Assembly: GCF_002835825.1 (NCBI RefSeq)
Contig: NZ_PIZH01000030.1
Location: 1-11,291 of the forward strand
Length of the DNA: 11,291 nt
Direction of reading: 5' to 3'
From: Methanoregula sp.
GTDB lineage: Archaea; Halobacteriota; Methanomicrobia; Methanomicrobiales; Methanospirillaceae
Part shown: positions 3,194 through 4,474 of the stretch, in pieces
Layout of the letters: each line of letters begins with the position of its first letter
Numbering within the stretch: the stretch's first letter is position 1
Translations under genes and position numbers: made by a program
Notes under the pieces: model-generated
Told to the model about the DNA's origin: nothing
Seen by the model: the letters and a program-made list of their open reading frames with translations, nothing else
Databases searched by the model: none

Positions 3194-3242
3194 CATCTCT
3201 CATCTCTAGAGATTGGTGAGCGTACAAAGTACGTTCATCTCT
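3194..3242 (-). repeat. Three AGAGATG heptamers with palindromes in the frh leader
   Basis: Read on the minus strand, AGAGATG occurs at 3236-3242, 3201-3207 and 3194-3200; the last two are in direct tandem. The copy at 3236-3242 overlaps the start site predicted from the TATAAAA box. The copy at 3201-3207 forms one arm of the palindrome at 3202-3213. Possible operator half-sites or a leader RNA element; no protein is assigned. Confidence 0.45.
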
Positions 3243-3412
3243 ATCTTGATCCATCCGTTTTATAATCTTTATGAAATGAGTTCCCGCCGGAAAAAGCCAT
3301 AAATCAGCGTTATTTTCTCCCGATTCTGTGCAAATCGTGTGTTTTGGAATATTCGACGAAAAAGTAAAACAAATGTGAAAATAAATACGATTTTCTTAAC
3401 TATACAAATATT

Positions 3413-3433: not shown

Positions 3434-4429
3434 TTAACCGTTTTCGTGCTTTTCGCCGTTCAATTCATCGACCAATTCGGCAATCGTGGCCTTGCGTTCG
3501 GCATACGCATCGTGCTGGTGGATGCTCTCCTCGTTGGTCTGCTTGATCGTGACAACGGAATCCCCGGAAAGCTACTCAAATTCGGCCAGTACTTTCCTGG
3601 CCATCTCCCGTACGCAGTCCTCAACGAACCGGGGATTTTTGTGCGCGGCCAGGACCACGGCTCCTTCGTCGCCGCGTTTTAAGAGCTCGTAGATCCCGCT
3701 GCTCATGGACTCCTTCAGGATATAGATTACCCGCGAGAGGTCAACGTGCTGGTCATCGTCGGTCTCGATGCAGAGGAAGCCCTTGCCGCGCTGGTTGTGG
3801 GTGGCCATCGGGACTTCCGCGAAGAACGCATCAATCTTGTCCTTCGGGATGTCAATGCCTTCGAGGACTCGCATCGCCCGCTCCTTCATGATATTCTGGG
3901 CGCAGGGGCATGCGGTCATACCGGTGACTTCTGCGCCGATGCTCTTTCGCACGATTGGTGCGCGGAACGTGCGGCGGGCGATTGCCCGTGCATGCACCTT
4001 GACGACTTCGTGGCAGGCCGTCTTGCTGATGGGCGTTTCACGTTTGACCATGAACTCGCTTCTCATGAAGACTTCCGTCCGGTCTGCGTACTCGTGGCGG
4101 TCAAGCAGTTTCCGTGCAACAACGCTGCAGAGATTCTCGATCTCGTTGACTTCACCATCGATCGCCTGCTGGAGGACCTCGTCGATCACCTCGAAATTGC
4201 GCGACAGGTTCGCTCCTTTGAGGCTGCCGGGAAGGTCGACATAGACATCGAAGTTGGAGATGAATATGACCGGGCGCTTTCCTTCGCGGTGCACTTCAAC
4301 GAGTTTCTTGACGTTCTTTACTCCGACTCTCGTAAGGTTGATCCGCACATCGGGCGACGAGGCCTGGATGTCCGGAAGTTCCCTGGTAAATGCTTTATCG
4401 GGGGTTTGATCTGATGCTTTGCGGCTAAT
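3434..4429 (-). CDS. mptA: GTP cyclohydrolase MptA, interrupted by an in-frame TAG
   Basis: Archaeal Fe(II)-dependent GTP cyclohydrolase of the FolE2 superfamily; it converts GTP to 7,8-dihydroneopterin 2',3'-cyclic phosphate, the first step towards tetrahydromethanopterin. Family marks, numbered from the GTG at 4346-4348: [12 protein letters not shown] (9-20), [19 protein letters not shown] (32-50), the TACPCAQ metal-site motif (145-151), MATHNQRG (181-188), [13 protein letters not shown] (213-225) and [16 protein letters not shown] (237-252). The frame then meets TAG (3572-3574) and continues with no shift into [20 protein letters not shown] and on to TAA at 3434-3436, which is MptA-like sequence. 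At the 5' end the conserved-looking [11 protein letters not shown] lies before the GTG. The frame is open back to TGA (4433-4435) and the only start-like codon there is ATT (4427-4429). Longest uninterrupted piece: 3572-4348. It may be read through, or a young pseudogene, or contain sequence errors. Confidence 0.85.
3572..3574 (-). other. In-frame TAG codon within mptA
   Basis: The codon series around it reads GCC GAA TTT GAG TAG CTT TCC GGG GAT, with intact family-like protein on both sides and no change of frame. The TAG replaces a variable residue just after the EF dipeptide; homologues as recalled have an ordinary residue there. Confidence 0.8.
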
Positions 4430-4474
4430 AGGTCATCGCATCCATGGGATGTTCGTGTGTCTCTTTAGTTTTTT

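Follow-up and report, generated by a model that had tools for sequence, protein, structure and literature searches.

The gene for the GTP cyclohydrolase MptA in a Methanoregula contig is interrupted by a single in-frame TAG, which we regard, with a probability of about one half, as a wrong consensus base (or a base from a minority strain) in a fragmented metagenome-assembled genome (MAG); that the letter itself is wrong we infer from comparison with relatives. In that case the TAG would be an isolated nonsense letter where mptA, otherwise intact and conserved, should have a tyrosine codon, and the living cell would have the tyrosine codon of its relatives and make a full-length MptA enzyme. 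At its other end the same gene probably begins, as do most of the Methanoregulaceae homologues read, at a conserved AUU codon; this 5' end result is the more solid of the two.

The window, by which we mean the whole stretch of 11,291 nucleotides analysed, is contig C510 of the source genome (G000), a MAG whose 2,617,107 bases are spread over 814 contigs, with a completeness of 90.18% and a contamination of 2.54%. The features at issue in and after the break are the following.

3434..4429, minus strand: mptA (GTP cyclohydrolase MptA) frame of 331 codons and a final TAA, counted from the probable AUU start and broken at codon 286
3572..3574, minus strand: in-frame TAG in mptA, a Tyr codon (TAC or TAT) in 29/29 inspected same-genus relatives
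3437..3571, minus strand: 45 codons past the TAG, conserved MptA C-terminus with ESIHQHDAY, matching TIGR00294 at 265-301 of 302
3436-3434, minus strand: natural TAA of the mptA frame

A sequence-only reading of this DNA had described a TAG at 3572-3574 in frame with MptA, followed by 45 codons, a TAA at 3434-3436 and a nine-T run. Direct reading of the minus-strand frame bears out each of these points, the TAG being codon 286 of 331 when counted from the probable AUU start and the T run lying beyond the TAA at 3423-3415. The gene, frame and group had also been named correctly: the piece before the TAG matches the NCBIfam MptA family TIGR00294 over profile positions 11-262 with 357.6 bits (curated cut-off 220 bits) and Pfam GCHY-1 (PF02649) with 222 bits, and most of the nearest named records are Methanoregula. 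The 45-residue piece after the TAG matches TIGR00294 at 265-301 of 302 (46.1 bits, E 3.6e-12) and is therefore the true MptA C-terminus rather than a chance open frame; because the two matches follow one another along the profile, the pieces before and after the TAG are one gene with one stop codon in it. The conserved look of the continuation and its ESIHxHDA segment, both remarked on earlier, are confirmed by the profile match and by the alignment of ESIHQHDAY in the window with ESIHNHSAYA of solved FolE2 proteins. A histidine of this segment is presumably a metal ligand in the related FolE2 enzymes, and the mptA frame of the window does not reach the segment uninterrupted, being broken at codon 286.

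Alignment of MptA homologues across the site, which had been proposed as a check, gave a tyrosine codon in all 29 same-genus loci inspected (TAT 15, TAC 14) and a conserved continuation in the relatives read. The idea that a single C-to-T or G-to-T change would explain the TAG fails, since the same-genus codon is TAC or TAT in every one of these loci. Among 80 named loci, which partly come from the same genomes as the 29 counted separately, 78 gave Tyr 35, Asp 31, Glu 6 and others 6; the two that remain are L245, whose sequence runs out ahead of the site, and L205, where the codon is Tyr. No stop was found at this codon in the 29 same-genus loci or in the 78 named loci and L205. All Methanoregula read thus have tyrosine at this place, but beyond them the residue may vary freely, so the TAG lies in a tolerant stretch. 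This variability could be taken to favour a functional shortened MptA, or two pieces made separately and then assembled, and two genomes of the genus do lack the end of the protein on paper. We nevertheless consider such an arrangement highly improbable: the residues past the site are conserved in relatives, including the segment common to FolE2.

The sequence past the TAG bears no sign of relaxed selection over its 45 codons when compared with G033, the nearest complete relative genome (2,820,858 bases), and with G030, a further close relative. Against G033 there are nine synonymous nucleotide differences and two non-synonymous codon differences, and against G030 three and one; the same codons differ between G033 and G030 by eight synonymous and one non-synonymous changes. 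Loss of purifying selection downstream of 3572, which had been named, together with an intact second mptA and the lack of a tRNA able to decode TAG, as what would refute the earlier reading, is not seen in these codons. An alignment of 30 MptA proteins has 310 columns, 214 of them invariant; only at the TAG does G000 by itself break a column that all the other sequences share. Together with the tyrosine codon in 29 of 29 same-genus loci and the undecayed downstream frame, this argues for a consensus error, as does the presence of a single mptA in an assembly of so many contigs. The rest of the gene has no other odd residue, a point that counts against a consensus error.

Synonymous differences between G000 and G030 number 2 in the first 40 codons after the TAG, versus 90 in the 268 codons before it. 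Gene conversion at the 3' end was considered and rejected, as this end is well conserved in general and the downstream flank differs. Between mptA and frhA, a block at about 3200-3275 is almost identical in G000, G033 and G030 and is probably the frh promoter and leader.

The TAG may instead be a true recent nonsense mutation present in some or all cells, a possibility to which we give serious weight though short of even odds. MptA would then be truncated at 285 residues and inactive or weak, and H4MPT would depend on a gene that lies outside the assembled part of the genome, be obtained from neighbours, or go unmade in a failing lineage. The letter does stand in the assembly, little decay would be expected after a recent mutation, another mptA copy is conceivable in a genome only 90% complete, and a second genome of the genus, that of Methanoregula sp. 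OWC_0057, has its own mptA TAG. However, the window copy is the only mptA in the 90%-complete assembly, so the earlier suggestion of a second copy elsewhere does not hold within the part of the genome present. The lost piece also carries the ESIHxH segment common to bacterial FolE2, and loss of mptA would be unusual, the gene being matched in 215 of 232 genomes of the order and in 134 of 135 good-quality ones.

The mptA locus of OWC_0057 (L205, with genome G061 taken as the same genome because its PylS-like hits share their coordinates with those of G063, in which L205 lies) has its TAG at 2320-2322, 15 codons past the site of the window, at a Glu codon in relatives. The continuation is intact and ends at TGA; the contig is 37 kb long, in a genome of about 40 contigs. 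This second TAG is what decoding of the codon as an amino acid would predict, and we cannot explain it away. A base-call error and a recent nonsense mutation, both among the options first proposed, remain the likeliest explanations.

Elsewhere internal stops in mptA are scarce. A scan of 107 of 110 loci (leaving out L234, L258 and L278, where the pattern was not matched; L245 runs off its end) found early stops only in the source genome (L030) and in L205, both TAG, and the search of 232 genomes gave, among the matches listed, inside stops only in G000 and G061, again both TAG. Of the full-length same-genus matches, 2 of 36 thus have an inside TAG and 34 have no inside stop. Five further rows with TAA, obtained with a longer query, were discarded: the query overran shorter natural ends, and four of the five were stop-free with a shorter query, the fifth (G050) not being among the matches then listed. 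As a control, LeuRS (685 residues) was searched in the same 232 genomes, 231 of which gave a match; no inside stop was present among the matches listed, G000 and G061 included. These assemblies therefore seldom have inside stops, and finding two in a single gene of a single genus exceeds what this control would lead one to expect. Both the rarity and the independent OWC_0057 case (2/36 full-length matches) count against a consensus error in the window.

Short pieces resembling the mptA 3' end and containing stops were seen at G006:C11:353-583, G012:C525:5715-5849 and G004:C75:15600-15743, each in a genome that also has a full mptA. In L218, from the Methanoregula sp. LacPavin MAG, the MptA frame follows the family up to HDAYA and then at once departs from it, which looks like the effect of a frameshift or of a chimaeric stretch.

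Inside-stop scans covered mptA, LeuRS and one partial genome pair, in which 591,060 bases of G000, made up of the window, 80 contigs and 13 more pieces and including 13,853 letters N, were compared with 1,200,000 bases of G033. A filter that kept alignments differing mostly at third codon positions left 176 between G033 ORFs and G000 (59,596 codons), and in these G000 has 13 internal stops: TAG 6, TGA 4 and TAA 3. Sorting by eye left two of the 13 as convincing, in genes that read on and are not near a contig end: mptA and a DUF169 gene. In a third, a TGA in L083, the end of the contig is no more than about 90 bases away and the match to the protein degrades; the remainder we took, also by eye, to be antisense shadow frames or ORFs whose start was mis-predicted. 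With the roles exchanged, 183 alignments (63,634 codons) likewise held 13 internal stops, now in G033, and at least one of these falls in what seems to be a decayed gene of that genome (L107 against L081). This equal number and the sorting by eye weaken the case for a consensus error that the DUF169 gene otherwise supports.

L099 4195-4932, contig C756 of G000: DUF169 gene with an isolated in-frame TAG, Pfam PF02596, 206 bits

Its TAG, at 4828-4830 of L099, is a Glu codon in G033; the sequence beyond it is conserved and reaches a TAA common to both genomes 34 codons on. Matches were found in 36 of the 39 genomes of the genus, and the nearest two relatives (96-98% identical) are unbroken. Besides that of G000, 12 rows list stops, three of which are TAG in copies 72-73% identical that match to residue 243-245 of 246. 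A count of genes with TAG followed by conserved sequence, suggested at the outset, thus yielded two convincing cases in the 591,060 bases. A second isolated TAG in the same MAG, at a position unbroken in the nearest relatives, favours a consensus error. Against it, all three convincing cases (G000 mptA, G000 DUF169 and OWC_0057 mptA) are TAG.

The same observations are those that decoding would produce. An amber suppressor tRNA or strong readthrough in these Methanoregula would give full-length MptA, and the conserved in-frame continuation, the like TAG in DUF169, the independent TAG of OWC_0057, the uniform use of TAG and a LeuRS with no inside stop among the matches listed are all in line with it. 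The machinery, however, was not found. The best match to PylS in the 90%-complete G000 scored 21.8 bits against a cut-off of 178.15; no PylS above the cut-off occurred in the 39 same-genus genomes or in the OWC_0057 genome (0/1), and weak matches were present also in 13 of 14 control genomes. In G000 the PylS N-domain was not found (0/1) and MtmB was absent by genome search. Pyrrolysine occurs in the protein families MtmB, MtbB and MttB, and MptA, which bears the TAG here, lies outside them. The release factor aRF1 is represented in G000 by one full match with no inside stop.

Across G000, 27 matches to the tRNA family RF00005 were recovered, an incomplete set, and ARAGORN read none as having a CTA anticodon. 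One tRNA that it first missed (L029) it read as an intron-bearing tRNA-Met once introns were allowed. Another needs separate mention.

L073 1917-2022, contig C222: intron-bearing tRNA, called Asp by ARAGORN

By our reading of the anticodon stem this is a tRNA-Tyr with anticodon GTA and an intron. It is identical to the copy in G033, so that suppression by a changed tyrosine tRNA is not supported. The recommended search for pylS and an amber suppressor was therefore negative for pylS, and for the suppressor it was negative among the tRNAs recovered; as that set is incomplete, a suppressor on a missing contig is possible. Conserved genes that end with a stop in both G000 and G033 use TAG in G000 at 11 of 120 ends, which rules out genome-wide reassignment, and TAG closes 49 of 434 ORFs of at least 150 aa in G000, shadow ORFs included. 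With no machinery found, an ordinary tRNA-Tyr and aRF1, TAG in use at normal gene ends, three sites that correspond to Tyr, Glu and Glu codons of relatives, and no inside stop in 34 of the 36 full-length mptA matches from the genus, we consider it unlikely that the codon is decoded, and the option of TAG read as an amino acid, put forward at the outset, finds no support in PylS, its N-domain, MtmB or the recovered tRNAs. Decoding, if true, would in our judgement extend amber recoding beyond the organisms known to use pyrrolysine. A wrong consensus base thus remains our preferred reading of the TAG, whose value lies in the caution it urges over single stops in MAGs; two Methanoregula genomes with an mptA TAG are the loose end.

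The beginning of the gene involves three features.

4427..4429, minus strand: ATT, probable mptA start codon, with an in-frame TGA two codons upstream
4435..4443, minus strand: GGATGCGAT, putative ribosome-binding block, conserved site by site in 31 Methanoregula-type loci and ending 5 nt ahead of the ATT
4379..4426, minus strand: 16-codon N-terminal extension from the ATT to the conserved LPDIQ segment, with codon-periodic substitutions

The start picked by the ORF caller is the GTG at 4348. Translation of mptA must begin above it, because the conserved LPDIQ segment lies upstream. Over the 18 codons between LPDIQ and the TGA, the frame of the window has no ATG, GTG or TTG and a single Ile codon, the ATT at 4429-4427. 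The pattern of the window (4427-4443, minus strand) recurs in most of the loci read among L031-L059 and L200-L255, and G033 also has a probable ATT start. The survey of starts took in 86 distinct loci, those with a long enough flank; L243 and L260 fell short. In 50 of the 86 the 10 codons above the key Ile codon offer no standard in-frame start, and the key codon is ATT in 47, ATA in 2 and ATC in 1; as the rule required an Ile codon, these figures test only the choice among ATT, ATC and ATA. Further into the protein, at 11 Ile columns that never vary, ATT accounts for 131 of the 550 codons of these 50 sequences.

The other loci are more varied. An ATG or TTG stands two codons upstream of the key codon in 13 of the 86 (there ATT 9, ATA 3, ATC 1), and a start 4-9 codons upstream of it in four. 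Nineteen, among them L263, whose title says Methanoregulaceae, have no such Ile codon; in 16 of the 19, ATG GAA comes immediately ahead of LPD. Some Methanolinea-type loci have a standard start more than 10 codons upstream, and in 14 of the 50 an ATG, GTG or TTG occurs inside the extension. Of the 50, 28 are Methanoregula-type loci with an in-frame stop two codons above the key codon (ATT 27, ATA 1): 21 have no standard start before LPD, and seven have one inside the extension.

Substitutions between close relatives change character at the ATT. After it they number 151, 172 and 397 at positions 1, 2 and 3 (62 pairs) and are codon-periodic; before it they number 282, 319 and 266 (93 pairs) and are not. 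Upstream, the block GGATGCGATGACYT (GGAKGCGAT) is conserved 5 nt before the ATT, many Methanolinea-type loci reading GGAGCGAT there. The latter is close to an archaeal ribosome-binding site. The leader of aEF1A in P. abyssi is reported to have GGAGGUGAU (PMC6237735). From its conservation and spacing we infer that the GGAKGCGAT block may serve in ribosome binding.

The main rival to initiation at AUU is a +1 frameshift from an out-of-frame ATG at 4436-4434, inside the block. Over 31 loci the bases of this ATG are each conserved at 84-97%, yet relatives that keep ATT or ATA (L223, L233, L239-L241) lack it, and for this reason we prefer AUU initiation. AUU start codons exist, for example in infC of Escherichia coli. 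If an AUU start of mptA is true, a gene for tetrahydromethanopterin synthesis would have a non-canonical start throughout the lineage, and this might set or regulate its level; if confirmed, it would be a conserved archaeal start other than AUG, GUG or UUG, and the standard ORF caller would here be cutting 27 N-terminal residues off MptA. A general literature search, in which mptA was never combined with either term, gave no title on a TAG in mptA or on an AUU start of the gene.

The TAG resembles pyrrolysine UAG decoding in methanogens (PMC8211752) in being an in-frame UAG with a conserved continuation. It differs in that neither PylS above the cut-off nor MtmB was found, that the gene is no methylamine methyltransferase and that the relatives read lack the TAG there. 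Isolated nonsense letters in MAGs are a closer likeness: the assembly is fragmented, the site is stop-free in relatives, there is no downstream decay, and a second similar case, DUF169, occurs in the same MAG. The difference is that a relative, OWC_0057, has an independent TAG in the same gene. For the probable AUU start, the likeness is to infC of Escherichia coli, ATT taking the place of ATG after a ribosome-binding-like block; mptA differs in being an archaeal biosynthetic gene and in having its ATT conserved over many species.
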